DNA from: Undaria pinnatifida | Taxonomy: Eukaryota > Sar > Phaeophyceae > Laminariales > Alariaceae | Assembly: GCA_012845835.1 (NCBI GenBank) | Contig: JABAKD010000021.1 | Coordinates: forward strand, 1,501,185-1,565,184 | Length of the DNA stretch: 64,000 nt | Direction of reading: 5' to 3' | In this document: one piece after another, positions 20,613-59,522 of the stretch | Layout: each line of letters starts with the position of its first letter | Position numbering within the stretch: the first letter of the stretch is position 1 | Program-made: the position numbers and the translations under genes | Notes under the pieces: generated by a model | Seen by the model: only the letters and a program-made list of their open reading frames with translations | Told to the model about the DNA's origin: nothing | Databases searched by the model: none

Positions 20613-21900
20613 CTGTAGAAGCTCACGAAGTCGTTTGCGGTCCAGTTCTATGCGTTGCAACAATAGCGGTAGACAGTGCAGAAACGAATCAACAAAAATC
20701 ATCACAGCCGGCTACTCTGCCGATCCTGGCGAATTAACGCATGGTCCATCTAACGCCCGTTGTACGTAGTATAAGGACTAGCCTTCGCAACCGGGAGGTC
20801 TGTAGGAACGCACGAAGTCATTTACGGTCCGTCTCACTGCGTTGGGGCGGTAACGTCCGGGAGCCGAGAAACGGATCAAGGCAATCAATCACAACCGACG
20901 GCTCTGTTAATCCTGACGAGGTCGATTCATCCTCCCTCTAAAACGCGTTGTACCGTGAATAAGGACGAGCGATCACAATTAGTCGGTACAAACTCACGGA
21001 ATCGTTCATCTGGTCCATGGATGAGTGTACCGGGGGTAGCGGTAGGCGACATGGGATCGTATTTGTATGAAGACGTGCATTCAACGCTCTCTGCTCTGTT
21101 GAAGGTGGTAAAGAAACTCATGGTCCACACCTCTGGATTCAGCGACGACAGCGATAGACAGCATAGAAGCTGCACTTTTTGTCAGGAAAAGGTTAGTCTA
21201 TACAATCAGCAGGCCTGTACAAGCGCACAAAAGTTGTTCATCGTGCGGCTCCGTGCATTGCGGCTTTGGCATTTTCAGGTGGCACAAAAACTTAACGTAT
21301 CAAGACAAATTATCACAACCGACTGCGCTGTGGATCTTGACTAGAGCTCGTGCATGGTTCATCTAAAACCCGTTGTACCAAGCATTCGAACACGCCATCA
21401 CAATGGGCAGGCCTGCAGTAGCTGACAATTTTTTTTCATTGTCCATATATGAGCATTGCGGCGGTGGCGGTAGGCGACGTAGAAAGGTGTGTATCAAGAT
21501 AGGCGACGGTAAGCAGCAGGTCCGCATCATGTAAACGTAGTAGTCTGCCGTGCTGCTGGGAAGAGGCTGCTTTCGTGACAACACAACTCCCGCTTGTTGC
21601 TCACTTGGCACACATGAACACGGCTGCATCACCTGACTGGTAGGTTTTTACCCGTCAGAATTCTCACGCAAGCTAGGCCATATGACAAGAAGCTGAAAAA
21701 TCAATTCATGTTGAGTATCTTGGCAGTACGAGATTAGCGACAGACAGCATAGAGAAACGTTTGTGTCAGGAACACGAGATCACGTCTGGCTCCTACATTG
21801 AAGCCGGTAAGACCCTCCATTGTCCATGTCAATATGCCTTGCAGTGGTGGTAGCCATAGACAAACATTACTCGCGCTCACCTCTCCACCGGCGTCCGATG
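20613..21900. repeat. Tandem copies of an exon acceptor region (~190-230 bp units)
   Basis: The wording at the acceptor of the 20507 exon, GGCAGGCCTGTAGAAGCTCACGAAGTCGTT, recurs in decayed form near 20795, 20985, 21210 and 21410. Each is followed by related GTGCAGAAACGAATCA-, TCACAACCGACGGCTCTG- and CATGGTYCATCTAACGCCCG-type words. Each unit is therefore a copy of exon edge plus upstream intron. Confidence 0.8.
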
Positions 21901-22423
21901 AGTGTTTGTTCAGCACTCGCATAAGGACCTCATCACAAGCGTCGTCGCCTGAAACACCGGCGTTTCTGGACGCGATCTTGAGGGCTGGCAGCCCTATGAC
22001 CCCCCCGTCTTCAGCTGTGAGTGATCGAAAGCACGCCTCGGCCTGTTCCGGGGGGGGGTGTCATCATCACGGGAGTATCAGTGTTTAGAGCGGCAGACGA
22101 GTAATAGCTGTGGCGCAGGCATCCTCTGGTGTGCATACTTTTACGGTTTTCGATGCCAGAAGGCTGTGGTTCACTCCGATAATGGCGTGTTAACTTGATT
22201 AGCCTACTTATACCCCATCCCCTTTAGGTGGACAAACCAGTGTTGAATTACTATTGATATCGCTGCCATGACAGCTTGCGGTACGTACGTGTCGTACTGT
22301 TCGGTGCTATTCAGCACGGTTCGTGCCGTATACCAAACTGTGCGTTCATATCGCCAACCTGCTAACTCCAGAGCCCCTTCCATTGCAACAACACGACGCC
22401 AACATGACGCCAACATGACGACA
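21901..22423. other. Intron stretch, nothing recognised
   Basis: No repeat family, array or exon was identified. Short open frames on both strands lack splice support. Confidence 0.45.
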
Positions 22424-22463
22424 GCAGCAGCAGCAACAACAACAACAACAACAACAACAACGA
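22424..22463. repeat. AAC microsatellite
   Basis: About 13 AAC units directly downstream of the donor of the next exon (reading the minus strand). Confidence 0.95.
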
Positions 22464-22473
22464 ACATTCATAC

Positions 22474-22677
22474 CAGGTACTCCTCGTGCCGAGTTCCGTT
22501 CTGGTGAGTGCTCACGTCGTCTAGGTGCTTCTTCCAGAGCCCCTTCCTGAGCTTGGTTTCGACCTGCTTAATGGCTTCGTCCGACAGCTTTTTTACAACA
22601 TCCAGTCGTTGCTTACGCTGTCCCGTGGTCAGCCTCCGCGGCAAGGTTTCATTGTTCGTTATCGTCTCCATCAGTTC
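22474..22677 (-). CDS. Exon of giant EF-hand gene (completes an EF-hand loop; basic coiled linker)
   Basis: 204 bp between an acceptor (TCGCTCGAAAG) and a donor (GTATGA), in phase at both ends (68 codons). Its first residue is the Glu at position 12 of the loop begun by the exon at 25509-25644, giving DWRQNGSVQFQ joined to E. That is strong evidence the two exons are adjacent in the mRNA. After ELMETITNNETLPRR comes a charged helix (QRKQRLDVVKKLSDEAIKQV, then LRKGLWKKHLDDV) likely to be a coiled linker. It ends HEEYL. An alternative internal donor (GTGAGC after LDD) is also in phase. Confidence 0.85.
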
Positions 22678-23199
22678 CTTTCGAGCGACAAGGCGAAGAA
22701 GACAGAAGAAGCGTTAGACCGTTTTTCCTGCCTACCAGCCCGAAATACGTATAAGCTCGAAATGAATAACGCTTCGAAACCAGGGGAAAACTCCGAGATC
22801 GTAGGTAGGGGATGAAAATGAACATCCCCGGGTTAACCATTACGAACATAAGTCTGTCAATTCTCCGTCGATAACGGTAAACGATGGCTTGGATTGTTCG
22901 CATAGGCCTCACGGTCACGGCGCAAAAATAAAAAATAAACAATATGATGTTCTGGCCGAAATATTGCGAAAATTATGAGAAATTTCCGGTGAATTTTTTG
23001 CAACATGATGAGGCATTTACCCCTGTTCACAATGGATCTTCGTAATAATTGCATGATTCAGTCATTGTATCCTTGTGCTTGGAGACACGGTCACTACACA
23101 TTCTTATGTTCGTGATAAAAGTACCCCATGGCGTCAACTCCACATCGAGTGAACGGTCACTTTTTTTCCTGTCGAGCTCTTGTTTAGTGCCGGACTGTT

Positions 23200-23640
23200 T
23201 TGCCAGCCTTCGTGGAGAGGCGAACGGCGTTGACTATCAATGCCGCTGTCTACCGTTATTTTGTCAGTCTGGGTGGAGAGGCGAAGGGCGTTGACTACCA
23301 ATGCCGCTGTCTACCGTTGCGAAGAGAGAATATAGGCTAATCGACAAGTGGTTCGGCCTCCGCGGCAAACTTTCGATTTTCCGTAGTCGTCTCCAGCAGG
23401 CAGTGGGGACAAAGGGTAGGACAGTGCTTGCCGCGAAGTGCGCAAAGCTCTCAACTACAGCGTGGGTACGATGCTACTGCTGTGAGGGAGAATATAGACT
23501 AATCGACAAGTGGTTCAGACCCCGCGGCAATTTTTCGATTTTCTGTAGCCGTCTCCATCAGTAAGTAAGGACAATGGGGTGAGACAGTGCTTGCCGTGAA
23601 GTGCGCAAACCTCTCGACTTCAGCATGGGCACGCCGATTT
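23200..23640. repeat. Decayed copies of an exon edge
   Basis: CCTCCGCGGCAA..TTTCGATTTTCCGTAGTCGTCTCCAGCAG at about 23356-23400, and CCCCGCGGCAAT..CGTCTCCATCAG at about 23520-23562, both match the 5' part of the 22474-22677 exon (CCTCCGCGGCAAGGTTTC..ATCGTCTCCATCAG). Flanking words (GAATATAGRCTAATCGACAAG, GTGCTTGCCGYGAAGTGCGC) repeat with them. About 23210-23310 is another local duplication (GGTGGAGAGGCGAAGGGCGT). Confidence 0.8.
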
Positions 23641-24548
23641 AAGAGCGCCCCGTGACAACCCGAAGCCTGTGCTCTCGACTACAACAGCGCTCCTATCTGC
23701 AGTGCGAAATATACAGCCTTTAGTGCGGCGGGACATGTTGCATTGACCGCTCCGATTTCCCGAATGCTCATAACCCGGGTGCTCTTAATCTCCACTGTAT
23801 ACGGTTAAGCGGTCTCAACTATACGGCTAAGCCGAAAGTAGGTGCAGTGGGGTACCCGCTTTGGAAACGCCTTTACGACTAGAAAGCTGTTTTGGCGCCA
23901 AATTACTTGAAATTGGTATGGGGGGTTTTGGGCCTCTAAAGGGGTTAAGACATCCGATTTTTATATTATGGGGGAAATCAGGACGAGGTGAACCGGCTTG
24001 TCGCGAAATCAAAATGGAAAAAATCTTTTTGCCTCCTATCCTCCAAAAAGTGTGTTTCCCCAGGACCATAACGCCTCCACACCTATACATAGAAGCGCGT
24101 TATCGCTCCTGCCATTATGTTGTCTGCCTCAGGAGCATGGGGATTGATCTCGGGCGAGGTTCAAGTCCAGTAGGTCGTGTATAGTGGTTACGAGCAGTCG
24201 CAGGATTGATAATTTCCCTCCGATTTAAGAACCATTTCGGTCATATCCCAGAGCTAGAGCATCGCGGTCATAAATTGAGATATGGCAGGAACGGAGATAA
24301 GATCATCTAAGTTGGCTCATGTTCCGCCTAGTCAAGACCGCCTCCGGTCACGTCCCAAAGTATAACCACCGCAGTCTTGACTGTTAGACAAGACCTAAAC
24401 GGAGATGACATCATCTAATTCGGCTCGTCACGAGGTGGTCTTGAGTTCGGCACCCCACTGTATATTTTAGAGTTAGGAACGAGCCCAGTTTTCGTTTTCG
24501 TTTCTCCGTTGGCATTCTTCGTGATTGCGGGGGGGCTCCCTCCCCTCC
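23641..24548. other. Intron stretch with reversed R1
   Basis: About 23860-23955 is repeat R1 in reverse (GCCTTTACGACTAGAAAGC, GCCTCTAAAGGGGTTAAG). Near 23633 the words CGATTTAAGAGCGCCCCGTGAC recur at 62541. The rest is unassigned. Confidence 0.5.
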
Positions 24549-24690
24549 TCACTCCATCCCTCTCTCGCTATCCTGCTCCTTCCCACCTTCCCTCTCTCCC
24601 TCCCTCCTCCCTTCCTTTCTTCCGTCCCTTTCTCTCGCCTTCCCTCCCTCCCTCCCTCCCTCCCTCCCTCCCTTCGTTTCTCCCTCCCTC
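24549..24690. repeat. CCCT/CTCC pyrimidine array
   Basis: About 140 bp of TCCC and CCTTTC variants, purine-rich on the minus strand. Confidence 0.95.
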
Positions 24691-24764
24691 GCAGGGGTTA
24701 GGGGTAACAGTTGAAGCTCATGATGTACATCCCTCCATGGAAACCCCGGGAAACCCCGGGCACA

Positions 24765-24950
24765 CACGACGCACGCTACGGCGGAGGTGCGTCAAGCATT
24801 GTATTTTCTGAAGCCCAACTTATTTTGGGGAAAAACTGATCTTGAAACCCGATCGCTGAGAATGGAACCGGATCACCAAAACCATGGCCTAGGCCTGACA
24901 AGGTGGACACATTGCCGAAACAAAACGAACGACATTCCGACGATGCCATT
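24765..24950 (-). mobile_element. TIR-A fragment
   Basis: GACGCACGCTACGGCGGAGG start, then ATGGCCTAGG and ATTCCGACGATG in reverse-orientation order. The distal end is lost. Confidence 0.65.
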
Positions 24951-25031
24951 ATGAGTTATCTCCTCTACAACTGGAAACCCTTTTTTCTAACAAATTTACT
25001 TGAAGCTAGTATACGGAGGGGTTTTGGCAGG

Positions 25032-25284
25032 GACGCGTGCCACGATATCTAGAGGTACACCATTTTTTTTATCGAAAATGGCTTTTGACGTTTATACCAC
25101 ATTTTTTTGTTGGTTCATGAGCTCTCGTTGTGTTAACTTAGGCCATGTGGGATTTTTCATCCGGTCTACTCGTAACACTTTTATTTTTTCTTCCACAAAT
25201 CAGTTTATTTTAGGGAGAGGGTCTTAAGCTCCCAATTTGAGAAAGCCTCAGAAAAAACAATGGTTGGTGTACCTCTATCGTAGG
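25032..25284 (+). mobile_element. TIR-A element, slightly shortened
   Basis: From GACGCGTGCCACGATATCTAG to GTACCTCTATCGTAGG, with the internal words CTTAGGCCATGTGGG and GTCTTAAGCTCCC. The last bases of the right end are missing. Confidence 0.8.
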
Positions 25285-25508
25285 TTTAAGGAGGGTCAAC
25301 GAGGGAGTCATTTAGAAATTATTTTCGTCAAAAAAGAGCAAATTTCACCGCGGTCAAGCACAATACGACACCAAACAAACGACCACAAAAAGCAATTCCA
25401 GAGCCTACGTTGTGTTTAGAAGCCGTTTTTTTCAACGTGAAACTCCGAATGGCCGTGGCGTATATAAACTTCATGGTCCAAAATTGTTATCTTAGCGTTT
25501 TCTTTCAC

Positions 25509-25644
25509 CTGAAACTGTACGCTCCCGTTCTGGCGCCAGTCGTAGGCCTTGAAGAGACGATCGGCGTTCGCCTTGTCGCCGCCTAGACCGAATGATTCCA
25601 CTGCCTCTCGGAAATCAGCAGCGGTTATATCAGACCCCTTCTTC
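25509..25644 (-). CDS. Exon of giant EF-hand gene (EF-hand pair, split)
   Basis: 136 bp between an acceptor (TGGTATTTCTCAG, preceded by about 75 bp with no other AG) and a donor (GTGAAAG). It starts with one base that completes a codon and ends on a codon boundary. It encodes KKGSDITAADFREAVESFGL (end of one EF-hand), then KANADRLFKAY and loop residues DWRQNGSVQFQ. The Glu at loop position 12 is supplied by the next exon (22474-22677), so this is a near-canonical EF-hand split by an intron. The entry helix of the first EF-hand is in the exon at 26931-26996, but the phases do not close. A microexon of about 8 nt would supply the missing F-D-x and fix the phase. Confidence 0.88.
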
Positions 25645-26179
25645 CTGAGAAATACCATACCGGAACGGTTGAGGGCGATATGGGTTTCAGAAGGACGATA
25701 TCAGAACAAGCAAACGCCAAGACAGTGGTCGCGGACGACGACCGTATTAAGCGTCGCAGAGACAACGGGCGGCGGCATTTTGTTTTTGTTTTTCACCCAG
25801 ACCGAGAGATGCCGGGTAGCTTCACGTACATCCGCGGTAGCTTAATCAAAGTCGGCATTCCCGCGCAATAAAAATATGAAAGCGGAAGAATCAATGGCTC
25901 GGTGTATCGCAGAAACTATGTCGGAATGCGTAACGCCAAAACTAATATGTTTTTTTTTCAATAATGCCCGTAGATTTTTTTACGGAGACGATGACCGTTC
26001 GCGTTTTTCGCTAGACACTCGCTCGCTAAGGCGGAGGTGCGCCATTTTTTGCTGGAGCGCTTATCGCTTTTGAAGAGCTCTGATTAATTTTTGGCAAACC
26101 GAAAAAGAGTGCAACCCAACGAACACACACAAAACCCGTCGCTCTTAAGCGCAAAAGTCAATCCATCGTTTCGCTAAAC
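25645..26179. other. Intron stretch, nothing recognised
   Basis: No repeat family member was identified. A missing microexon of the EF-hand gene should lie between here and 26930. Confidence 0.45.
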
Positions 26180-26297
26180 GAAAAAAATATTTCGACGATT
26201 TTGGATTACGAAGCCTCATCCTTCAGGAAATTGTTTGGCCAAAACACACAAAGCGTGACGAAAATCGACTGCTGTCTCTGTGGTAGCGCGCGTTTCC
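26180..26297 (-). mobile_element. TIR-A fragment
   Basis: TTTCGACGATTTTGGATTACGAAGCCTCATCCTTCAGGAAATTG-type order followed by CTCTGTGGTAGCGCGCGT. Only the left-end part (reverse orientation) remains. Confidence 0.6.
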
Positions 26298-26930
26298 AAC
26301 CCAGACCGAACCGCAAGATATCGGACCAACCAACTCCGATGAAAACAAGAATCAGGATCGATGCGGAAAAAAAAATTAGCCCAGCCCCATTTCAGCAAAC
26401 CATGCCCGAACCCACCAACGCCCAGAGGCTACCAGAAAAGGTGCCAGAAACGACCAAAGCCTAGCAGCCGATTCTGGAACAATGCCCTAGTACTCAATGC
26501 CGAAAATGGTACAGGGAGAGACACGCTGGCGGAACAACAAACGTCGACAAAACAGCAAGACCGGCGCCGGGATAATACGTGCCGACACCACAAAAACACA
26601 GAAGCAGGGATACCGGAACAAACCGTGCCGTGCCGCGAAACGTTCTAGGGAACGATGCCAGAACAGTTTCACGACGAGAATACAAACTCGAGAAGGGGGC
26701 CGTGATGGTCGTTTGCGGCATACACATCGAGCGTTCCGTTGATAAGGTGGAAACTTTCGTCATTGAGGAGACTCGTCAACGGACGCAAGTGTCGAAGGGG
26801 GGAGAAGGGAGATACGTGAGACGCAGAATACAACCTACACAAGATCTATCCAAGCGAAACGGTATATATCAAAGCACCAAATACGAGATTCGTCGACCAA
26901 GATAGCTCTCTATCTTGCTTGCCTGGTTAC
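26298..26930. other. Intron stretch, unassigned
   Basis: A-rich and open in the plus strand over about 100 codons (26579-26905), with no recognisable motif and no splice-supported exon. Confidence 0.4.
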
Positions 26931-26996
26931 CCTCCTGAAGGCGCGTAGAAGGTTGCGGTGGTCCGACTTGAACGACTCCATAACCTTGGCGCGCAG
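26931..26996 (-). CDS. Exon of giant EF-hand gene (EF-hand entry helix)
   Basis: 66 bp between an acceptor (GCACTCATCAG) and a donor (GTAACC), in phase at both ends. It encodes LRAKVMESFKSDHRNLLRAF, then RR. This is the entry helix that should precede the half-loop KKGSDITAADF in the exon at 25509-25644. The upstream exon (28625-28771) ends two bases into a codon, so another exon is missing on that side. Confidence 0.7.
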
Positions 26997-28106: not shown

Positions 28107-28120
28107 TTGTTGTTGTTGTT

Positions 28121-28186
<66 letters not shown>

Positions 28187-28232
28187 GCTGTTGCTGTTGT
28201 TGTTGCTGTTGTTGTTGTTGTCGTTGTTGCTC
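28107..28232. repeat. GTT microsatellite
   Basis: About 40 GTT/GCT triplets. Minus-strand frames read poly-Thr, which is a repeat by-product. Confidence 0.97.
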
Positions 28233-35894: not shown

Positions 35895-35895
35895 G

Positions 35896-36444: not shown

Positions 36445-36708
36445 GTACAGATAGCGGTATACCATATTCTGGCTTTTTTTTTCTGAATAACTGGGGCTTC
36501 TTGACCCAATAGTACCGTCCCAAAAATAGCTCATACTCTTGCGTGGTTCTCGACGTGTACCGCGGCCATGGGATTTTTCGTCCGGTATCATAGCAGCTTT
36601 GTTTTCCTCACCAAAACCAGTTTTTGGGAGGGACGTGTCTTAAGATCCCGAATTGAGGGGTAGTATTAGGAAAAAAAGTGGTGTACCTCTACCGTAGCAT
36701 GCGTCGTC
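36445..36708 (+). mobile_element. TIR-A element, left end eroded
   Basis: Starts GATAGCGGTATACCATATTC and ends GTGTACCTCTACCGTAGCATGCGTC. The internal CGTGTACCGCGGCCATGGG and GTGTCTTAAGATCCCG are kept. Confidence 0.8.
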
Positions 36709-37276: not shown

Positions 37277-37405
37277 CGCGAGTCCTGTCTGGTTGATGTC
37301 GCTCTGGAGGAAGCGCCGGAACTCCGAGAAGTCGATCTCGCCGGACCCGTCGACGTCAAAGTGCCCGAACAGCGACTTGATTTGTTCTTCGCTCAGTCCG
37401 AGCCC
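37277..37405 (-). CDS. Exon of giant EF-hand gene (canonical EF-hand)
   Basis: 129 bp, 43 codons, in phase at both ends, between an acceptor (TTCGATGACGGACAG) and a donor (GTACGAG). It encodes GLGLSEEQIKSLFGHF, the loop DVDGSGEIDFSE, and the exit helix FRRFLQSDI, then NQTGLA. The loop has D1, D3, S5, E7, D9 and E12 with G6 and I8, so it is a complete calcium-binding EF-hand. Together with the upstream exon (38088-38235) it forms a standard EF-hand pair whose phases agree. It is one of the two best diagnostic exons in the window. Confidence 0.93.
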
Positions 37406-38087: not shown

Positions 38088-38235
38088 CTGCTGCTTGATG
38101 CTCTCGCGGAACTCCCTGTAGTCCATGAACAGCCGTCGCCCGACAGCGGCCGGTCGAAAGTGGCGGAAGGCTCGGAGCATCTCCAGTGACCCCCCCTTGA
38201 CCTGTTCGCGTCGTCCGATCACAACGTCGCCCCCG
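38088..38235 (-). CDS. Exon of giant EF-hand gene (degenerate EF-hand, first of a pair)
   Basis: 148 bp between an acceptor (GCGCTAATCAG) and a donor (GTATAG). It needs one base from the previous exon and ends on a codon boundary. It encodes GGDVVIGRREQVKGGSLEML, RAFRHFRPAAVGRR and LFMDYREFRESIKQQ. The spacing is that of an EF-hand (RAFRHF entry helix, F-M-D-Y-R-E-F exit), but the calcium ligands are missing. It pairs with the canonical loop in 37277-37405. The upstream exon (40599-40718) ends in phase 0, so an exon is missing between them. Confidence 0.85.
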
Positions 38236-40598: not shown

Positions 40599-40718
40599 CT
40601 GCGACAGAATGTTGTCCTTCACACCCTGGGCCTTCTCCTCACGGCTGGCGGAGCGAGCACGGGCGGGGTGATCTCCCGGGTCCCGCGTCGCGTCATCGGC
40701 GTCGTCGGCCAGTTTCTT
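40599..40718 (-). CDS. Exon of giant EF-hand gene (charged linker)
   Basis: 120 bp, 40 codons, between an acceptor (CTGCGCGTTGCAG) and a donor (GTGAGA). The other two frames have stops, so phase 0 entry and exit are firm. It encodes KKLADDADDATRDPGDHPAR, then ARSASREEKAQGVKDNILSQ, an acidic-then-basic disordered or helical linker with no named domain. The upstream exon at 43610-43805 matches in phase only if a weaker internal donor (GTTAAG) is used there. Two decayed copies of its acceptor side lie upstream (40880 and 43378). Confidence 0.8.
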
Positions 40719-40871
40719 CTGCAACGCGCAGCGGATGCATAGGGTGGTTTTCGTAAATATATTCGGATGCCGAAACTGACGATGGTGGCCGTACCCGGGG
40801 GGATAGTCGGGGGCATGCACAGTCGGTATGAATCCTTGAAGTATTGACGCCGTACTAGTAGCTCGCGCGAC

Positions 40872-40920
40872 GTGTCATGGGCGTCTTCTGTCAGATTGTT
40901 CTGCTTCACGCACTAAGCCG
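40872..40920 (-). pseudogene. Decayed copy of the 40599 exon's 5' edge
   Basis: The acceptor (CGTGAAGCAG) and then NNLTEDAHDTSRE aligns with KKLADDADDATRD of the exon at 40599-40718. No matching donor side is present, so it is a fragment. Confidence 0.75.
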
Positions 40921-42205: not shown

Positions 42206-42691
42206 CATTCGGTTTTTGCAGATCTGAATACATACATTATGCCTGGCCGATCGGGTTGCACTTCTCCGTTTCACCCGCAAAAACATGTCATCACTTTTTC
42301 GGCCAGGCGTGGGACTCCTCGAGCCAATAACGTTGCGGGGGAAGAAATGATGTCACCGTTCGACCGTAGCAAGCGGGGTTGTACTGTCCATGCACGAGTG
42401 GATTACTCTGGCGACGCCTCGTAGGCGTCTTCGGGCGGTTTATTTCGCTCCGCGCGACAACGCAAGCACTGCAACAGGGAGGGCTTAGTACGGCGGTGTC
42501 CTATCTATATACATATATTTCCTGGGTACCAACCTGGCCGTATTTTCTAAAAATGTGTCTGCAGATGTGAGCTCGACCGATTGAAGTGTTCCATGCTCAT
42601 ATTTGCAAGCTGAGTGACACTCCGGTCGCGTGTTTTGACAGATACATTGCGCGTATGGAAGATGTCCGCGTGCACTGAATGTTGTCAGCGT
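42206..42691. other. Intron stretch, nothing recognised
   Basis: No exon, element end or array seen. Confidence 0.4.
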
Positions 42692-42812
42692 GCATCAGCA
42701 TCAGCATCAGCATCAGCATCAGCATCAGCATCAGCATCAGCATCAGCATCAGCATCAGCATCAGCATCAGCATCAGCATCAGCATCAGCATCAGCATCAG
42801 CATCAGCATCAG
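42692..42812. repeat. CATCAG hexanucleotide array, 20 units
   Basis: Essentially perfect. Six-frame translations give Ser-Ala, His-Gln, Ile-Ser, Met-Leu or Asp-Ala dipeptide runs, all by-products. Confidence 0.98.
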
Positions 42813-42963
42813 CGTGTGCAGGATTATTTTGCCCGGTTGTCAATCTCAGTCCATAAACCTGGTCACAATGGTCATACCACCAGCAAAATACCCCGGGGAC
42901 GCCCCCTGGGCATGTCGTCGGCCAGTGTATGTACGCTGCTTCGCGTAACAACGTAGGAATTGC

Positions 42964-43247
42964 CGGGGGGGGAGGGGGGGCGGGGGGGGGGGGAGGGGGG
43001 GGGGGGGGGGGGAGGGAGGGGGAGAGCGGGAGGGAGGGGGGGGGGGGAAGGGGGGGGGGGAAGGGGGGGGGGAAGGGGGGGGGGGAGGGGGAGGGGGGGG
43101 AAGGGGGGGGGAGGGGGGGGGGGGGAGGGGGAGGGGAGGGAAGGGGGGGGGAGGGGGGGGGGGGGAGGGGGAGGGGGGGGAATGGGGGGTGGGGGAAGGG
43201 GGGGGGGGGGGAGGGGGGGGTGGGGGAAGGGGGGGGGGGGGGGGGGG
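42964..43247. repeat. 284-bp near-pure G tract
   Basis: G runs of 7-16 with single A, C or T interruptions (GGGGAGGGG, GGGGAAGGGG). The plus strand could form many stacked G-quadruplexes. Since the gene is on the minus strand, the G-rich strand is the template and the RNA would be C-rich. Confidence 0.97.
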
Positions 43248-43374
43248 TACCATATATACCCTGGAGTATGATACCGGGGTGCCTAACCCGATGATCATTG
43301 GTCATACCCACCAGTAGATGGATACCCGTGGACGTCCAGAGTGTGCGCCTTCGACGAATTGACACCATAACTCT

Positions 43375-43430
43375 CGCGGCGCGTCACTGGCGTCGTCGGC
43401 CGGTTGATTCTGCTCCGCGACACACCGTTC
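43375..43430 (-). pseudogene. Second decayed copy of the 40599 exon's 5' edge
   Basis: The acceptor (CGCGGAGCAG) and then NQPADDASDAPREL aligns with KKLADDADDATRDP. It sits 2.7 kb from the exon, just below the next exon at 43610. Confidence 0.75.
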
Positions 43431-43609: not shown

Positions 43610-43805
43610 TGCTGTTCTGCAGAGTAGCGTTGGAGCGGAGCTTAACGGTGGGCGCGGACTTGTCCGATATCGCGCGGAGCTTGGAACTTGCCTTGGCTTT
43701 GTCCCTGGAGAGCTTGGCATGGTGCGTGGAACCATCGTAGTCGTCGGGCACTAGGAGGTTTGACGCTTTGCTTCTCGCGATTTTGATCTGCTCCAAATGC
43801 TCCTC
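43610..43805 (-). CDS. Exon of giant EF-hand gene (basic helical linker)
   Basis: Minus exon between an acceptor (TACCATGTGCAG) and a donor (GTGACA). It starts in phase with the EF-hand exon at 46814-46978 and ends one base into a codon. It encodes EEHLEQIKIARSKASNLLV, then PDDYDGSTHHAKLSRDKAKA and a Ser/Lys/Arg-rich end (SDKSAPTVKLRSNATLQNS). This looks like a surface-exposed basic linker, with no domain I can name. An alternative internal donor (GTTAAG after SAPT) would be in phase with 40599-40718. Four related copies of its 5' edge lie upstream. Confidence 0.8.
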
Positions 43806-44339: not shown

Positions 44340-44720
44340 TGTTTCCTGATTATTGCTAGGCATCATGTTCTGTATGCCGTTTACTTCTTGCATGGCTGTG
44401 CGCGGTGTTGTATTGCATTGTGTTGGTGAGGAGCTATCGCAAATAGTCAGACACGAGAGAGTTCGATGCTTGTCCCAATGAGAAACCCAGCCTGGGTCAG
44501 TGTTTCGTGTCATCTCGCTAGGTATCCTGTACTGGGTGCCATTAATTTGTCGCATGGCTGTACACGGCACGGTGTTGCATTGTGTTGGTGAGGAGATATC
44601 GAAAATAGTCAGGCACGAGAGGGTTCGATGCTTTTGCATCCTCGCGATTTCGATCTGGTCCGAAACCCTCCTCCTCCTCCTCCTCCTCCTCCTCCTCCTC
44701 CTCCTCTTCTCCTCCTCCTG
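44340..44720 (-). pseudogene. Tandem decayed copies of the 43610 exon's 5' edge
   Basis: The copy at about 44590-44727 keeps an acceptor (CGACTTGCAG), an expanded GAG run and DQIEIARMQKHRTLS, matching EQIKIARSKASNLL. A second copy at about 44415-44480 shares CTCACCAACACAATGCAA and its flank, and is offset by about 180 bp. The GAG expansion (CTC on the plus strand, about 44670-44712) arose from the exon's own GAGGAG start. Confidence 0.8.
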
Positions 44721-45105: not shown

Positions 45106-45483
45106 CTTTTTTTCCCCATTTTTTAATTTTTCACGCACACCTACTTTCTAGCTTCTCGACAACATACATATTACTGTACAAAACAATCGTCGAGGGTGGC
45201 CGATACGAGCAGCCCAGGGCCGTGGTCACAAGTGTCGGCCCCTTCTCCCCCCCTCGGTTCTTGCCTTCAATTTTTGATCGCGCATAGGGTTCAGCAATCC
45301 CACTGCTCGTCGATTTTTCATCTCGAGTGTTGCTAACTCACGCTCTCGCGCTTTCCGCAAGTCAACTCGTGCACAAGAAAAAAGTCCCCACGATTTTTTG
45401 CGAGTATGCAATCGGGGGGATTCGAAGCGACGAAACTGACCTATACCAGGCTCGAGGATACCCTGATACGCCACCGGGGCGAC
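45106..45483 (-). mobile_element. tRNA-derived SINE, copy 1
   Basis: The minus-strand head (45483 downward) has a GTCGCCCCGGTGGCGTATCA start with an A-box-like TGGCGTATCAGG and a B-box-like GCTTCGAATCCC about 55 nt on. A body of about 270 bp is shared with 60391-60707 (GCAAGTCAACTCGTGCAC, GGTTCAGCAATCCCACTGC and TTCTTGCCTTCAATTTTT on the plus strand). The 3' end is A-rich (T-rich on plus at 45106-45130). This is the usual layout of a tRNA-derived SINE. Confidence 0.75.
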
Positions 45484-45754
45484 TCAACACCTCGCCTACG
45501 ACAAAACCACGTTAGGCGGTCTCTTTGGCGCAGAGTAGGTAAGAATCCGATCGGGGATGCATTATTTCGAAACGTCAAAAAAAAAAAAAAAGGCGAGAAC
45601 GCCTACTTCGAAGTATGACCACAGGGAATAGGGAGGGGGGTTCACTCGCGCGAGGGATCCCGACCCACAACAACAACATAAAAAAAGCCTCAGAAGGGAG
45701 CCCCCGCCCCCCCACCATACCGTTGGCGTGAGATGAGGAGCTATCGTATCGTAT
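45484..45754. other. Intron stretch with family mark
   Basis: 45645-45670 has TTCACTCGCGCGAGGGATCC and 45720-45745 is GC-rich. Nothing coding. Confidence 0.45.
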
Positions 45755-45860
45755 AATCGTCAGACACGAGAGAAGGCTTGACGCTTTGCTTTTGCTTTTG
45801 CGTTGCATGCTTGCCGTCTTGATCTGCTCCAAAACGATCCTCCTCCTGTATCAGTTTCTA
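45755..45860 (-). pseudogene. Fourth copy of the 43610 exon's 5' edge
   Basis: The acceptor (AACTGATACAG) precedes GAGGAGGATCG. The product MEQIKTASMQRKSKSKASSL aligns with LEQIKIARSKASNL, with an inserted QRKSK from a CAAAAG expansion. This is the best-preserved extra copy. Confidence 0.8.
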
Positions 45861-46813: not shown

Positions 46814-46978
46814 CTCTTGGAGAGCCCAGTAGTCCGTGTTGCCCCTCCCGTCCTGCATGCGCTCCTCCCACATCAAGAAGTCGGTCAGGTCGACCACCCC
46901 GTCCCCGTTGTGATCCATGCGGGAGAAAAGCTCTTTGGTGTCGAGCTCCCCTCGCAGGTCAGGCAGCATGCTTCCAAT
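46814..46978 (-). CDS. Exon of giant EF-hand gene (canonical EF-hand)
   Basis: 165 bp, 55 codons, in phase at both ends, between an acceptor (GGTTAACAAACAG) and a donor (GTATTTC). It encodes IGSMLPDLRGELDTKELFSR, then MDHNGDGVVDLTDFLMWEER and MQDGRGNTDYWALQE. The loop DHNGDGVVDLTD has D1, N3, D5, D9 and D12 with G6 and V8, so it is a complete calcium-binding EF-hand with Asp instead of Glu at position 12. It is the clearest coding evidence in this half of the window. Phases agree with 48676-48802 upstream and 43610-43805 downstream. Confidence 0.93.
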
Positions 46979-47150
46979 CTGTTTGTTAACCACGAACAAT
47001 CGAGTCGATGGTGCGGGTGATTTTGCGGCATGCAATCTGTTTGTTAACCACGAACAATCGAGTCGATGGTGCGGGTGATTTTGCGGCATGCAATCTGTTT
47101 GTTAACCACGAACAATCGAGTCGATGGTGCGGGTGATTTTGCGGCATGTA
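46976..47150. repeat. 58-bp tandem repeat, three units, covering an acceptor
   Basis: AATCTGTTTGTTAACCACGA.. GGTGATTTTGCGGCATGC occurs three times (GTTAAC at 46985, 47043 and 47101). Each unit contains the splice acceptor AACAAACAG plus the first three exon bases, so three potential acceptors stand in a row. Confidence 0.95.
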
Positions 47151-47259: not shown

Positions 47260-47890
47260 TTTCCGAGGAGACCTGGGCGATGGCTTGTGGTCAGTGCGAG
47301 AAAACGCTCTTTGGTGTCGAACTCCTCTCGCAGGTCTGGCAGTATGCTTCTAAACTATTTAAATAGGCAAGTGCGAAGTCGGGAGTATAGGTAATGGTGC
47401 TGATCCTCGCGAAGAAAAAAAAACATGATATAACTAGCTAAATCCCTTACAGCCAGCAGTACACGAGAAGCAAAAGTCCTATTTACTTGTCAGGAGCGCA
47501 CGAAAAAAGGACACAACCTACGAAGCTTTCCGGAGACCTAGGGAAGAGGCTGTGATCCACGCAAGACAAACCCGCTTGATGTATCGAACCTCCCTCTACG
47601 ACTTCGTTAGGCCTAGCGGCATGTTTCCAATGCAGGAAAAAAAACGGGATCAAAAGTATGGGCGCGCTCGAAGAAGAACAAATTAACGGGAGAGCAAAAC
47701 TGCCTCCTCCCAGGTCTGGCGGCATGTTTCCAAGCCTGTTTAACAGGAAATCGCGGAGGCCGGGATCTAGGGGTGTTGGCCGCTCGAGCAAAAAACGTAT
47801 CAATGCGAGGAGAAAAAAAAGGCTGCTGAATGTCGAACTCCCTCTCTCAGGTGTGCCAGCGTGCTTTGTATCTGGTTCAAGGAAGAAGGG
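47260..47890 (-). pseudogene. Decayed copies of the 46814 exon's 5' edge
   Basis: Four copies: 47308-47372 (GCTCTTTGGTGTCGAACTCC..CTCGCAGGTCTGGCAGTATG), about 47585-47632, about 47698-47752 (CCTCCCAGGTCTGGCGGCATG) and about 47833-47885 (GAACTCCCTCTCTCAGGTGT). They match the exon's CTCTTTGGTGTCGAGCTCCC..CTCGCAGGTCAGGCAGCATG. The frame is lost in all of them. Confidence 0.8.
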
Positions 47891-51898: not shown

Positions 51899-52012
51899 CT
51901 TTCTTCTGGCCTTGATTTTGTCGAGCAGAATGTGGTCGACCACGGACTTTTGCGCGTCTGTAAGCCCGCTGGGCTTGTTGTGAAGCTTGTCGCGGTGCTT
52001 CATTAAGTGAGT
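51899..52012 (-). CDS. Exon of giant EF-hand gene (helical linker)
   Basis: 114 bp, 38 codons, in phase at both ends, between an acceptor (GTACTTGTTGCAG) and a donor (GTGCGG). It encodes THLMKHRDKLHNKPSGLTDA, then QKSVVDHILLDKIKARRK, a charged helix pair with EF-hand-linker character but no loop. Phases fit 54799-54899 upstream and 50750-50811 downstream. Confidence 0.8.
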
Positions 52013-52034
52013 CTGCAACAAGTACCGCACGGCG

Positions 52035-53787: not shown

Positions 53788-54284
53788 GTTAGGAGGATTA
53801 CAACAACAAATAAACACGGTCGAGACTGGTCGGGCGAAGACGTGTTCGAAATGCCACCGGTCAAGCCTGGTCCCGGGCGCCCTGATCCGACCCGGCCCGC
53901 GCTAATTGATCCGATCCGTCGAAAGCCCTGACTATATATTTTCCCCCTTGTTGTTTGTGTATGTGAATTTCGCGAATTTCGCGAATTTCGCACAAAAGTT
54001 CCATGTGGTTTTGTACGAATCTACTTCACATCGGGATATAGGTAAAAGAGCACGCTTATACCCGTAGAAAACACGAACAAATCGTCGATTTAGGCCAAAA
54101 CAGTTGCGGGCCTAATGGGTCAAAAGCCTCGAGCGATTGATAGGAGCACAATAAGGTGACAACGCCGCATGCATGAAGCGACGGGAACACCACGACACAG
54201 AAAGGGAAACAAAGAGAGAGGAAAAAGGGGGGAGAAACGACAAAATAAAGAGATGGATGCGCATACTAAGGGAGTTGCAACCCA
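53788..54284. other. Intron stretch with GGGTCGGGT-family scrap
   Basis: 53875-53935 has CCTGATCCGACCCGGCCCGC and CGAAAGCCCTGAC, related to the flank of the CCGAC array at 7288-7410. About 53965-53990 is a CGCGAATTT triple repeat. Confidence 0.5.
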
Positions 54285-54700
54285 AAGCCTGTGCGTACGT
54301 CACCCACCCTGACAATATCGCGGTCGGCGTGCTCCAAGATGTGCCCGCATCATAAAACCAAAAAAGACCGGGGAGGGGAGAGGGACCAACAGAGAGAAAG
54401 AGAAAGAAAGATATAGAGATAAAGATAACACTAGTGGAGCCCAACTACTAATACTACACGTACGTGACCCACCTTGAGCATAGCACGGTCTGCCTGCTCC
54501 ATGATTTTGACCACAACACAAAGGAGAAAGAATGGGGAAGAGATAGAGCAATAGAGAGAAAGATATATATATATAAATAAATATATCATTGGTGAAACCC
54601 AACTACTAATACTACACGTACGTGACCCACCTTGAGCATAGCACGGTCTGCCTGCTCCATGCTTATGACTACAACACAAACGAGAAAGAAGGGGGAAGAG
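54285..54700 (-). pseudogene. Three tandem copies of the 54799 exon's 3' edge
   Basis: 54634-54661 reads MEQADRAMLK then the donor GTGGGT. 54473-54503 reads the same. About 54309-54340 reads LEHADRDIVR then GTGGGT. Each is followed by the same intron words (ACGTACGTGTAGTATTAG on minus) at a spacing of about 165 bp. Two keep the ten residues and the donor intact, so they are real candidates for alternative exons if an acceptor is used. Confidence 0.85.
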
Positions 54701-54798
54701 ATAGATCAATAGAGAGAAAGAGAAAAAGGTGTATACACATACATATAAACATATCATTAGTGGAACCCAACTACTAATACTACACGTACGTAACGCAC

Positions 54799-54899
54799 CT
54801 TGAGCATAGCGCGGTCGGCCTGCTCCATGCTCATGCCCTGGGCGTTCTTCGCGCTCGCTCTCAATCCACCGGAGGAGTCGTTCGACCGAGGCTTGCGCG
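54799..54899 (-). CDS. Exon of giant EF-hand gene (linker)
   Basis: 101 bp between an acceptor (GTGTGACGCAG) and a donor (GTGCGT). It takes two bases to complete a codon left open by 57549-57714 and ends in phase with 51899-52012. It encodes ARKPRSNDSSGGLRASAKNA, then QGMSMEQADRAMLK. A second frame is also open, but phase on both sides and the conserved MEQADRAMLK of its three extra copies decide for this one. The first half looks disordered and the second half helical. Confidence 0.82.
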
Positions 54900-55194
54900 C
54901 TGCGTCACACGCATAGATACGACAAAGGGACATTTTTTTGTCAGCCCCGAACAGCATTGTCGTGGAACAGTATGATCATGGAAACTTTCACTTTCAGCGA
55001 GCTTTTGCGTGGGCTTCAGCGGATTACCGACGGAACCGCAACCAGCCATGTCTTGCGAAATACCGTGTATACATTGAAACGAGATATATTTTCAGTCGCG
55101 AGCAACGCTTTGGCAGAATTTTCGGTGATTTTTCCCTGGGGTTTGGGCTGAGTGCCAGCGGAACCGGCCACTTCTCGCACAATAGATAGCTTTG

Positions 55195-55250
55195 TGATGG
55201 GCAAGACTACAGCTCTCAACCCGCCGCAAGAAGAATCGTTCGAACAGTGA
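55195..55250 (-). pseudogene. Decayed copy of the 54799 exon's 5' part
   Basis: CTCTCAACCCGCCGCAAGAAGAATCGTTCGAAC on the plus strand aligns with CTCTCAATCCACCGGAGGAGTCGTTCGACC of the exon. It is in no usable frame. Confidence 0.7.
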
Positions 55251-55664
55251 CATCTCGTCCCCAAATGGTACTGTCCCGCCATTCCTAATAAGTGGCATGC
55301 CGCTACCAGCAATGGTAGTGTAACGCCATTCCTAATGAGTGGCATGCTGTCCTTAGCAGCGGTCGTGTCATTCCTAACAGCAGTGCTATGCCATACGAGG
55401 TACCCATTAGCTTTTGGCATGACAACGGACGCAAAACACGCAAAACGAAAGAAGCATTTAAGCTTTCAGGCCGCACCATCGTCAATCGCCGCGACAAAAA
55501 ATGGGGGCCTACTGCAGTAGCTAACCTCGATTTTTGTTCAGCGTTTTTGTTCTCTCCCGTCTCGAGATACCACTGTTGGCGTGCCATCCGTCAACACTGG
55601 CGTGTCCTCCCTAACAGCAGCACTGCATCCCTGGCAGCATGGGCATGCCTTTCCCGAGCCATCC

Positions 55665-56388
55665 CACGGTGGGGGTGCAGCAGAAGATTCTAAGGATTTT
55701 CTGAGCTCCTAACATGAGGAGCTAACCCAGTATCAACATCATCCATCGACAGCATCATCCATCATCACCCGAAACATGCCTTCGAAGGCATTCGTTCGCC
55801 CAACCCGACCAAGCATCTATGCAGCACTGCATCCCTGGCAGCATGGGCATGCCTTTGCCGAGCCATCCCACGGTGGGGGTGCAGCAGAAGATTCTAAGGA
55901 TTTTCTGAGCTCCTAACATGAGGAGCTAACCCAATATCAACATAATCCATGGACACCATCATGCATCATCACCCGAAACGTGATGCCTTCGAAGGCATTC
56001 GTTCGCCCAACCCGACCAAGCATCTATGCAGCACTGCATCCCTGGCAGCATGGGCATGCCTTTCCCGAGCCATCCCACGGCGGGGGTGCAGCAGAAGATT
56101 CTAAGAATTTTCTGAGCTCCCCTAACATGAGGAGCTAGCTCAATACCAAAACATCATCCATCAACATCATCATCCATCATCACCCGAAACGTGATGGCTT
56201 CGAAGGCATTCGTTCGCCAAACCCGACCAAGCTTCTACGCCTTAGTCCTAAAATAAACACCAGGTATGTATTCTCGTTAAATTACTTGATCAATTACCAA
56301 CCCCCAGTTCCTCACTTGAGGAGGAGCTCGATCGGACACAGGTACATTAACAGTTGATCCAACAACTGCAACCCCTACCGCGAGATGG
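55665..56388 (+). mobile_element. TIR-B array: two partial units and one full copy
   Basis: CATCCCACGGTGGGGGTGCA starts near 55662, 55865 and 56070. Each is followed by TTTTCTGAGCTCCTAACATGAGG and CGAAGGCATTCGTTCGCC. Only the third unit runs to the right end (CAACCCCTACCGCGAGATGG, 56388). The spacing of about 205 bp with shared flank shows local tandem duplication of the left part. Confidence 0.85.
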
Positions 56389-56499
56389 GTCTCCCAACAG
56401 AGGCGTACCACCCCTGACACCATCGATAGTGGTGGCATCTCACTCCAAGACACCAGTGGCATCTCACCCCCTAACAGTAGCGGAACAACAAGGCAGGCT

Positions 56500-56625
56500 A
56501 ACCAAAAAAAAAAAAAAAAAAGACGGTACGCTACCTTTTCCGACGCTCCATTGCCCCCCACCCCCCCCCCCCCCCCCGTCGTCGTCGTGGCGACAGGCTT
56601 TTCGGGGGGGGGGGGGGGGGGGACC
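56500..56625. repeat. A run, C run and G run close together
   Basis: A run at 56503-56521, C run at about 56555-56577, G run at about 56606-56622 on the plus strand. Confidence 0.85.
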
Positions 56626-57548
56626 TCGCCAACGTCATCGCCGTCAATAACGTGGGATTCGTTAACATTGGCACGACATCTCAACCGGTCGGTGACATGC
56701 CACCCCTACCGGTAGGTGGCACACCGCCCGCAACAGTAGCATTCCATCACGAGAAATGGCATTATCCGACCACAAGACGTCACCTTTGGGTGATTGGGCG
56801 CCTCCACCCCGGTTCCCGCGACAGGCTTGAGGGCATCGCCAAGGTCGCCCTCAACGTTGGCGTGTCATCTCTTGACAGTGACATGCCACCCCTATTTCCT
56901 TCCCACAGTAGCAGTGCCATATCGCCCTCAACAGTGGCATGCCACGCCCAACAGTGGCATCCCCAGGTCCCTATCAGTGAGATTCTTGGTATCACAAGAA
57001 GGCGTCACGTCTGAGCAACTCCATCCCCGTCGCCACAATGGGCGTAACGGCCTCAAAAACCACCGACTTTTTTCAGCGACCCCCCTCCTCCCGCCTCGAG
57101 CGACTCTACGATATGGACTTGCCATCCCTACCACCGGCATGTCCTCCCTGAGAGTGACTGCATCCCTTTGACAGTAGTGACATGCCATCCCGAACGGCGA
57201 CATATCGGCCCCAGTGATGCGTTACCCTTGAATGCGGCGTATCATCCCTACCCGTGGTATCCGTAGCCCATACCTGGTACCCAGCAGTAGCGTCTCCTCC
57301 CCAACAGTGGGGATTAATTAGCCAACCACAACAGCAGTGACAAATCATTCCTAACACCGGCATGTCGTTTCCAACAGCGGTCGCATACATATTCCCTTAT
57401 TTTTTTACCCTTCGGCGGATGGGGAAAGTAAAGCTTAAAGCGCACCACACCCCTCGCGTGCGGCATTCCATCTCCACCAGTGGCAAACCCTAGCTCCAAG
57501 TAAACGGCATGCCAAAGCTGTAGCAACAAAAAAGGAGTTACGATTCAC

Positions 57549-57714
57549 CTTTAGGCAGCTCCATCCCCGACGCCGCGACAGGCTTGACGGCCTCGCTGAT
57601 CCCGAATTTGTTCAGCGACCTCTCCCCCGTCTCGAGCCAGTGGCAGAACTCATCGAAATCGAGCTGCCACGTCCTCGGCTCAGTGTCGAAAATATCGAAA
57701 GTCGCGAGGATCAG
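57549..57714 (-). CDS. Exon of giant EF-hand gene (EF-hand-like)
   Basis: 166 bp between an acceptor (AAAAATCGTACAG) and a donor (GTGAATCG). It starts on a codon boundary and ends one base into a codon. It encodes LILATFDIFDTEPRTWQLDF, then DEFCHWLETGERSLNKF and GISEAVKPVAASGMELPK. DTEPRTWQLDFDEF has EF-hand spacing with one extra loop residue, so it is a diverged motif. Phase fits the next exon (54799-54899) exactly. Upstream, a 13-nt exon at 58202-58214 would bridge it to 59605-59723. Confidence 0.87.
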
Positions 57715-57732
57715 CTGTACGATTTTTAACAT

Positions 57733-57875
57733 GCGTACGGACGTCACACGTTCAGCGTTCGGAGGGGGGGCATACATATATATATATAGTCATCACACGT
57801 TTAGTGTCCCGGGGGGAGGGGCATGCGTGTATACAGTTGTTCCAGTCTTAGTGTTCGAGGGGGGGAGGCATACGT
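57733..57875. repeat. ~45-bp tandem repeat, three units
   Basis: CGTCACACGTTCAGCGTTCGGAGGGGGGGCATAC-type unit at about 57740, 57792 and 57843, with a TATATATATA stretch in the first. Confidence 0.85.
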
Positions 57876-58201
57876 ACAACACAGTCGGTACAAGATTCGA
57901 AGTGCGTCGAACTGGTGGAAAAATTGTCTCGCAAAGGAAAATTTGCATCTCCATGGGCGATTTGCACGTCCCCCCGGGAAAAACACACTATCGAACAGAC
58001 CGCGCCATCACTTTATCGCTGAAAACTAAGGCGATGACGTTGCTATAATAGAAGTTTGACGCAAATCGACGAGCGTAAAAAGCTAAAAATTTGGGACTGC
58101 TGTTCCCCACGCGTGAGAAAAACGAAAAACATGTACCGAGGTGGAGAAGGGAAGACACCCGTGACCACGGGTTATCCACAAGGTCGCTCAGGGTGACACA
58201 C
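57876..58201. other. Intron stretch, nothing recognised
   Basis: No array, element end or exon seen. Confidence 0.4.
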
Positions 58202-58214
58202 CTTGTAAGTTGAG
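58202..58214 (-). CDS. Possible 13-nt microexon of giant EF-hand gene
   Basis: CTCAACTTACAAG on the minus strand lies between a pyrimidine-rich acceptor (TTTTCTTTCCAG) and a good donor (GTGTGTC). The upstream exon (59605-59723) ends two bases into a codon and the downstream one (57549-57714) starts on a boundary. Thirteen bases closes that gap, giving SSTYK between KRSF and LILATF. Any longer use of this acceptor meets a stop. This is inference from phase and signals only. Confidence 0.4.
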
Positions 58215-58364
58215 CTGGAAAGAAAACGATAATGACTAATAGTAAAACGTAACATAGCCTCTTCACCACCGGATGGAAGAGACGGTGCGATCTTCTGCCG
58301 TGACCAATCCTACCATATTCATATCACATCAATCGAATGCGGCCAACACATCACTTCGACCAAA

Positions 58365-58790
58365 CAACAGACGGGGGCCTGTCTCTGCGACACCAGCAAT
58401 GGCCGTCGCCTCCACCTTCCTCTGCTATCCACCCTTAGCCGAACGCGTTCGGAAAAAACAAAATCCAAATTCACAGACGGACTTGCCTCTGCATTGTATG
58501 CCAGGAAAATACAGCGTCCTGAGCTTCCGCTGTGATACATCCTTAGATGAACGCTTTCAGAAAAAAACGGCCCGAAAAGCACAGACGGGGGCCTGCATCC
58601 CAGAAATACACGGCGCGTGATCTATCGCTGTCGTAAATCTTCACAGTAACGCCTTCGGCGAAAGCAATCATGGAATAACCAGACGGGGATCTGGCTATTC
58701 GTATGCATTACCAGACACGCGCGGCGCTCCCGCTTTCCGCTACTATTGGCCATGAGACGGACGCTTTCGGAAAGACAGAACAAAAATCAT
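58365..58790. repeat. ~115-125-bp irregular tandem repeat
   Basis: Three to four units with ACAGACGGGGGCCTG, TTCCGCTRTGATACATCC, GAACGCGTTCGGAAAAAAC and similar words, strongly drifted. Confidence 0.75.
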
Positions 58791-59449
58791 ACCAACCCTA
58801 CAATACACACAACAAGCTTGACAACAAAACATTAAATGTATAACCTCGATGCGGAATTGAGTCCATTCGGTACTGCTATAATAAACCTAAGACTCGTTGG
58901 TGATCGTATTCCAGTGCAGATAGCTCTAATGATTGAGGTATCCATTGGTTGATTCGGGGATGCCAATTTATCACCCCCTCCCTAAGATCTCAAAGCTTCT
59001 CACATTCCCCAAGCATTATTCATATCGAGCCTACATGAACTGTCGGACTGGTACTCGGTGATGCTTTCCCCACTCTGGCGTCGATCAACGCTACAATGCT
59101 AGAATGAGCACCTGAAGGGGGATAAGAGCTCCAAATGTGTTGGACAGCCCCTCCTTAAATTCGTCGAGAGTCAACACGTGCCCTTGACCTCGGTGTAGAT
59201 GCCTGCCAGCAAGCATGGAAAACCCAAGGCACAGGGTCACAGGGAAATATGCCACACCAAAAAGCGAATTTCAAGACGAAGCAGCAGAAGGCCAAAAATA
59301 TTATGGATTCGCTAACACGCCTCTTTTCAAGCCCTATATGCGCCAGACGGTTAACTCCCACCTCGCGAGGCCGGTAGTCCGGGTCATGCGGATATGCTTA
59401 TGATTGCATTGACTTTGGTCGACATCATATTTAGTTTTGTTCCGCTTAC
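58791..59449. other. Intron stretch, nothing recognised
   Basis: AT-richer at 58800-59000. No exon or element end seen. Confidence 0.45.
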
Positions 59450-59522
59450 TTGAACGAGCGCGTTGCGAGCTCTTTGGAGGCGTGCTCGGAGTTGGCATTG
59501 CTCGGAAGGCGGTGTCGAAGGA
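59450..59522 (-). pseudogene. Decayed tandem copy of the 59605 exon
   Basis: It reads HRLPSNANSEHASKELATRS, then F, then the donor GTAAGC, against NRLLGNGNSKHAAKELVKRS in the exon at 59605-59723, with the same donor phase. I find no acceptor giving the right entry phase. It is probably a relic, though it would be a candidate for a mutually exclusive exon. Confidence 0.75.

Follow-up and report, generated by a model that had tools for sequence, protein, structure and literature searches.

The window analysed here is a stretch of 64,000 nucleotides (nt) from Undaria pinnatifida (Phaeophyceae; assembly GCA_012845835.1, contig JABAKD010000021.1, positions 1,501,185 to 1,565,184 of the forward strand), with a G+C content of 49.5% by base counts. 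A codon and splice-site scan finds in it a single minus-strand gene of at least 15 exons, running from 59723 to 1334. We focus here on the introns of this gene, in which eight of the exons are accompanied by diverged copies of their own edges, and we conclude that the introns probably lengthen by widespread local head-to-tail duplication, in which the blocks that cross an exon edge leave decaying copies of that edge behind.

The gene and its exons

All 15 exons score at least 19 in the scan and the next-best candidate reaches 13.5 after a low-complexity filter; because the scorer was trained on the same exons that it later scored, both the scores and the gap to other candidates are optimistic. 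The reading phase agrees at 10 of the 14 junctions, and the model fails to join at A-B, E-F, F-X38 and X26-X25 (labels as in Table 1), so that small exons or other splice sites were probably missed there; at the F-X38 junction, a later X38 acceptor would fit the phase. The introns of the modelled gene range from ~0.7 to 14 kilobases (kb). The joined protein resembles EF-hand families (best Pfam expectation value, E, 7e-18), with flagellar radial spoke protein 7 and caltractin/centrin as its best solved-structure matches, and the gene is an ordinary multi-EF-hand gene. No Rfam match and no tRNA were found in the window.

Copies of exon edges in the adjoining introns

Each exon was used as a query together with flanks of 60 base pairs (bp), and local direct matches were scored. 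Direct edge copies were found in the adjoining intron for all eight of exons A to H, the best match per exon having an E of 1e-6 to 1e-27 (Table 1), which bears out an earlier, sequence-only reading of this DNA that had named these eight exons as adjoined by copies. The other seven exons (X52, X38, X37, X26, X25, X15 and X1) gave no local direct copy up to E 0.5. That reading had labelled the exons by their low-coordinate ends, which are donor ends because all exons lie on the minus strand. It had placed copies on the acceptor side of D, E and F and on the donor side of B and C, correctly in each case; exons G and H also have acceptor-side copies and exon A a donor-side copy, and exon G shows in addition a weak donor-side match (70%, E 0.001).

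The copies form short series, here called ladders, of one to four per exon, some of them weak; H copy 2 and a third copy of exon E are visible in pairwise alignment only. Ladder C consists of the exon edge and three donor-bearing units, and ladder H of the exon edge and four units of ~190 bp, each matching 31-46 nt of the exon, while the two copies of exon G sit within a 149-bp direct pair at 84%. For the first copy of exon E, the pairwise alignment reaches 120 exon columns. The divergence of the copies spans from 100% identity, in the exon D array, down to the detection limit. Because its three units are 100% identical, the exon D array counts as a recent duplication, and the real acceptor sits in the unit that adjoins the exon. 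One to five tandem copies per exon had been proposed. Numbers of this order were found, and adjacent head-to-tail units are seen for D, C and H, but not for F, whose copies lie at distances of 182, ~1,730 and 2,691 nt.

The copies contain exon sequence as well as intron sequence, and for that reason the objection that such copies might match intron sequence alone, which had been raised in advance, does not apply. A genome search (511,146,479 bases in 68 contigs) with ladders H and C gave no match beyond their own locus, the other six ladders not being searched, and a dispersed element was rejected as the source of these two.

Table 1. Exons of the modelled gene and copies of exon edges, in window coordinates
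Feature	Position	Strand	Evidence or remark
Exon A	59605..59723	-	score 20.4
Copy of exon A donor edge, GT kept	59399..59521	-	73% over 123 columns, E 2e-15
Exon B	57549..57714	-	score 31.5
Copy of exon B donor edge, GT kept	57005..57101	-	74% over 97 columns, E 6e-12
Partial copy 2 of exon B 3' end	56794..56839	-	78% over 46, E 2e-5
Exon C	54799..54899	-	score 27.1
Copy 1 of exon C donor edge, GT kept	54571..54667	-	90% over 97, E 2e-27
Copy 2 of exon C donor edge, GT kept	54413..54512	-	86% over 100, E 2e-25
Copy 3 of exon C donor edge, GT kept	54294..54346	-	80% over 54, E 3e-7
Exon X52	51899..52012	-	codon/splice scan; edge copy not found
Exon D (EF-hand)	46814..46978	-	score 36.6
Exon D array, 58-bp unit x 3, each with exon D acceptor	46975..47148	-	100% identical, tandem repeat scan
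Older copy of exon D 5' edge	47285..47360	-	83% over 77, E 2e-15
Weak short copy of exon D 5' edge	47706..47741	-	83% over 36, E 0.001
Exon E	43610..43805	-	score 24.0; donor uncertain, phase mismatch with next exon
Copy of exon E acceptor edge, AG kept	44544..44675	-	79% over 57 columns, E 1e-6
Copy 2 of exon E acceptor edge, AG kept	45734..45847	-	two pieces, E 0.003 and 0.008
Exon F	40599..40718	-	score 36.3
Copy 1 of exon F acceptor edge, AG kept	40863..40912	-	76% over 50, E 1e-5
Copy 2 of exon F acceptor edge, AG lost	42411..42455	-	73% over 45, E 0.002
Copy 3 of exon F acceptor edge, AG kept	43372..43419	-	81% over 48, E 3e-7
Exon X38	38088..38235	-	scan; start further in fits phase; edge copy not found
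Exon X37 (EF-hand)	37277..37405	-	scan; edge copy not found
Exon X26	26931..26996	-	scan; edge copy not found
Exon X25	25509..25644	-	scan; edge copy not found
Exon G	22474..22677	-	acceptor 22677 from frame and phase; scan favoured start 22633
Copy 1 of exon G acceptor edge, AG lost	23348..23424	-	81% over 52, E 3e-6
Copy 2 of exon G acceptor edge, AG lost	23510..23587	-	pairwise alignment
Exon H	20507..20647	-	score 30.1
Copy 1 of exon H acceptor edge and ~140 nt of intron	20787..20978	-	67% over 187, E 3e-10
Copy 2 of exon H acceptor edge (weak)	20986..21127	-	pairwise alignment only
Copy 3 of exon H acceptor edge and intron	21203..21399	-	E 4e-5
Copy 4 of exon H acceptor edge	21401..21485	-	E 1e-4
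Exon X15	15491..15645	-	scan; edge copy not found
Exon X1	1334..1427	-	scan; edge copy not found

Local duplication in the introns and at exon edges

Across 175 kb, made up of the window and the further loci described below, local repeat pairs number 149 direct and 39 inverted. Outside dispersed families the figures are 96 direct and 6 inverted, which points to head-to-tail duplication; these non-dispersed pairs have a median offset of 258 nt and a median aligned length of 130 nt, and in 45% of the 96 direct ones the offset is at most 1.3 times the length. In the window, local direct pairs within 4 kb take in 12-16% of intron points. Duplications do spread along the introns, and an even spread is what the sequence-only reading had named as speaking against it; real exons exceed the background 1.4- to 1.9-fold, but not at E<=1e-12.

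This excess is small by every measure applied. In a rotation test, 3-7 of the 30 exon edges were touched by duplications against 3.2-4.4 expected or, counted by exon, 3-7 of 15 against 2.3-3.3 (p 0.02-0.46). Random exon-sized intron segments carry an edge-crossing copy at a rate of ~0.17-0.30 per segment at E<=1e-5 or looser. Against matched pseudo-exons, 8 of the 15 window exons have copies at E<=0.01, the expectation being 0.25-0.29 per exon (p 0.016-0.043), and at E<=1e-12 three of the 15 do, against 0.12-0.15 per exon.

Further loci were required because the window had been picked for this very pattern, and six kinesin gene loci (from 130 kinesin matches) and six 10-kb tiles were taken. 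A first count found edge copies at 10 of 38 exons in these loci, against a background of 0.22 per exon. A stricter set drops six exons, one in L002 (a reverse-transcriptase-like frame) and five in L003 (an internal-repeat protein), three of which had been matches, and changes the coordinates of two kinesin exons, one in L011 and one in L012; L006 contributed no exon at the score cut-off of 17, and some kinesin exon ends are domain-match ends rather than splice sites. In the stricter set, 7 of 32 exons in nine other loci have edge copies at E<=1e-5 or looser, against 0.18-0.20 per exon (p 0.37-0.48), and three of these seven belong to one gene, in L012. The pattern thus recurs elsewhere in the genome, where the sequence-only reading had proposed to look for it. 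The kinesin exon at L012:7432-7647 has one donor-side copy, carrying 152 of the 216 nt of the exon, and three acceptor-side copies in its flanking introns; the exon at L010:4141-4366 has an acceptor-side copy at 93%, and an exon that is cupin-like by its translation (L007:1829-2032) has a donor-side copy at 79%.

Two further apparent duplications lie outside the window. One is a ~590-bp direct duplication at 96% identity within a predicted coding frame (L003:1550-2727). The other is a pair of kinesin loci ~29 kb apart (C2:16034374-16037637 and C2:16063521-16066784) that score identically at three exons, apparently through recent duplication of a gene-sized segment or through a duplicate in the assembly.

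When the stricter set is pooled with the window exons, copies accompany 15 of 47, where 9.7-10.9 are expected (ratio 1.38-1.55, p 0.045-0.11). At E<=1e-8 the count falls to 11, with 8.5 expected, and at E<=1e-12 it is 6, with 7.0 expected. A stricter background discards matches falling on exons; one of its variants discards dispersed sequence too. It lowers the expectation to 8.0-9.7 at E<=1e-3 and 1e-5 (ratio 1.54-1.87, p 0.009-0.046), to 7.1-7.8 at E<=1e-8 (p 0.09-0.15) and to 5.8-6.4 at E<=1e-12 (p 0.53-0.63). The copies are above chance as sequence matches, and their clustering at exon edges is weakly above chance. The proposal that duplications cluster at edges thus holds as a 1.4- to 1.9-fold excess at looser E and fails at E<=1e-12; clustering specific to exon edges was rejected, since rotation, pseudo-exons, other loci and the exon-free background all gave a small excess, with none in the strongest class.

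Conservation and detectability of edge pairs

When exons are aligned with their copies, 797 of 951 exon columns are identical (83.8%) and 660 of 869 intron columns (75.9%), a distance ratio of 0.63, in which the pooled columns are not independent and the poor ends have been trimmed by local alignment. If the exon member of an edge pair is conserved, the exon part of the pair diverges about half as fast as two free copies would, and old edge pairs would be over-represented among those detected. In a simulation using the same search, constrained pairs were ~1.35-1.5 times more detectable, summed over ages of up to 0.4 substitutions per site. Old edge duplications would stand out to a reader of the sequence because they stay recognisable longer than intron-only ones, and more generally, exon conservation alone can mimic a clustering of duplications at exons, which calls for caution. 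A separate exon-edge system is unsupported: the excess is modest, disappears among the well-preserved copies and has roughly the magnitude that exon conservation would produce. The idea that the copies reflect a way in which introns grow here is thus retained for general local duplication along introns and given up for a system of edges.

Several observations weigh against the account by general local duplication. The pooled excess of 1.4-1.9 (p 0.009-0.11) lies at or somewhat above the simulated 1.35-1.5. The copies of exon F are irregularly spaced and do not form a simple tandem. When copies are compared with one another (five ladders, H copy 2 left out, the pooled columns again not independent and poor ends trimmed), exon-like columns are more alike (386/537) than intron-like ones (253/418), mainly in ladders C, F and kinesin and scarcely in H or G; with longer units, the effect appears for C and H (162/268 against 415/838 for H). 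Free decay would not predict this likeness, except where duplicated blocks stop close to the splice site or one copy gave rise to another. It could stem from blocks reaching only a short way into the intron, from the ends of alignments or from the copying of earlier copies, and weak selection on the copies is a possible source as well.

Splice sites in the copies

The sequence-only reading had described AG or GT as commonly kept. Among the 26 copies in which both positions are aligned, the dinucleotide is intact in 15 against 17.1 expected from the identity of each copy, and splice dinucleotides are therefore not retained above the passive rate, so that their presence carries no signal. Donors keep GT in seven of nine cases and acceptors AG in eight of 17. 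These 26 sites leave out the exon D copies, as the array is identical to the exon edge and the older copy aligns within the exon only, and likewise copy 2 of exon B, copy 3 of exon E, the weak match on the donor side of exon G and one gapped site; H copy 1 is scored as lost despite a CAG two bases away.

Some copies nevertheless look, by their sequence, as good as the parent splice site: copies 1 and 2 of exon C read AAG/GTGGGT beside the AAG/GTGCGT of the exon. If the second or third acceptor of the exon D array were used, a stop would follow after 16 codons, and at exons A, B and C, read-through hits a stop before the first copy is reached.

Origin of the copies

In the model that we favour, blocks of tens to hundreds of bases would often be duplicated head-to-tail, lengthening introns, with slippage, unequal exchange or break repair as the presumed molecular cause. 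A block straddling an exon edge would place a second edge, made up of part of the exon, the splice site and part of the intron, inside the intron. Gene function would be kept if splicing used the edge joined to the exon body, that is, the downstream copy at an acceptor and the upstream copy at a donor, with the spare edges presumably ignored; the spare copy, free of selection, would then decay. Duplication of a whole exon would add an exon and duplication within an exon would alter the protein, so that edge relics are the ones expected to survive, which fits the observation that no copy spans both edges. This is an ordinary mutational process, recurrent across genes of this genome, and without a shown preference for edges.

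A process targeted to exon edges, such as stalling or breakage at splice junctions, might instead duplicate them preferentially and build introns out of junction copies. It could account for the 8 of 15 window exons with copies, where 0.18-0.30 per exon would be expected, and for the pooled 15 of 47, with p down to 0.009 under the strictest background. The best-preserved copies, among which targeting should be clearest, show no excess, however (6 of 47 against 5.8-7.0), nor do the independent loci when taken by themselves (7 of 32, with 0.18-0.20 expected per exon, p 0.37-0.48 at E<=1e-5 or looser), and the window had been chosen for exactly this pattern; we therefore regard targeting as unlikely. 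Selection could also maintain the copies because they regulate how the parent exon is spliced, acting as decoys or as alternative sites; the sequence-only reading had pointed out that the copies would supply such sites. Some copies do keep GT or AG, and the donors retained at seven of nine sites, the near-identical donors of exon C and the greater likeness of exon-like columns even between copies would all suit such a role. It is made quite improbable by the splice dinucleotides, which overall are kept no more often than passive decay predicts (15 of 26 against 17.1 expected, with acceptors at 8 of 17), by the in-frame stops that use of the copies would bring in at A, B, C and D, and by the lack of copies at half of the exons of the gene.

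The copies might, thirdly, be the decayed remains of whole-exon duplications, formerly mutually exclusive exons. Some hold much of an exon (120 of 196 nt for E, and 152 of 216 nt for the donor-side kinesin copy), yet no single copy covers both exon edges, in 0 of 8 ladders in the window and 0 of 7 exons elsewhere; moreover, the conserved end is the edge adjoining the copy-bearing intron, and in ladders H and C the tandem units terminate within the exon. An origin in whole-exon duplication is thus disfavoured, and we consider it very improbable. There is, finally, a slim chance that edges are mildly preferred for duplication or that copies are kept as decoys, in which case about a third of internal exons (15/47) would stand beside spare junctions that tune splicing, and the likeness of exon-like columns between copies would be a trace of selection.

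Under widespread head-to-tail duplication, the introns would hold a record of intron lengthening without transposons in a large-intron genome, with copies of all ages. Exon D, with three identical acceptors, and exon C, with closely similar donors, offer natural tests of the choice among near-equal splice sites.

Other repeats in the window

The window holds several other repeats. A 71-bp tandem array of ~10.5 copies (83% match) lies at 13652-14393, a pentamer ACCCG array of ~30 units (98%) at 7139-7287 and a hexamer array of ~20 units (100%) at 42692-42813, and ~280 bp of nearly pure G on the plus strand (42965-43247) lie within an intron. A direct pair of ~265 bp at 87% identity (45219-45483 and 60445-60707) is 15 kb apart. 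A dispersed family, probably an old transposable element, occurs in both orientations at ~67-79% identity (2740-3010, 3195-4079, 12802-13074, 17782-18528, 36544-36705 and 60198-60393).

Relation to known systems

The sequence-only reading knew of no named system of this kind. In a narrow sense this stands: among the titles and abstract openings listed in a literature search, of limited coverage and not proof of absence, none describes introns occupied by duplicates of the exon edges that they adjoin, and a review that treats intron length (PMC3488318) does not describe such copies in its accessible portion. The underlying mutation, on the other hand, is published. Introner elements (PMC9860276), as far as the portion of that source available describes them, resemble the ladders in that repeated sequence is tied to splice sites and introns, but introners spread over many genes, whereas the genome search with ladders H and C found no match at any other locus. 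Intronic minisatellites and other tandem arrays share the head-to-tail units, and both ladder C and the exon D array, with its three 58-bp units, are arrays of this sort; the units here differ in that they carry an exon edge and a splice site, are few and mostly much diverged, and in the case of F are non-adjacent. In experiments with duplicated splice sites in one transcript, copies of one site compete; the duplicates described here are, by contrast, natural and known from sequence alone.

There is also a close likeness to intron gain by tandem duplication, a published route covered by the Rogers model, by a potato case in which the duplication crosses an intron-exon boundary (PMC4974935) and by Drosophila cases (PMC2891723), as far as the sections of these sources at hand describe them. 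Common to both is a direct duplication within a gene that includes splice-site sequence, which is present here, and the potato block likewise takes the old splice signals along. There, a new intron arises, in potato together with a new exon piece; here, no new intron was found at a formerly intronless place, the copies lying in existing introns of the 15-exon model. The type of mutation is thus already published, and in this gene it lengthens existing introns instead of creating new ones.

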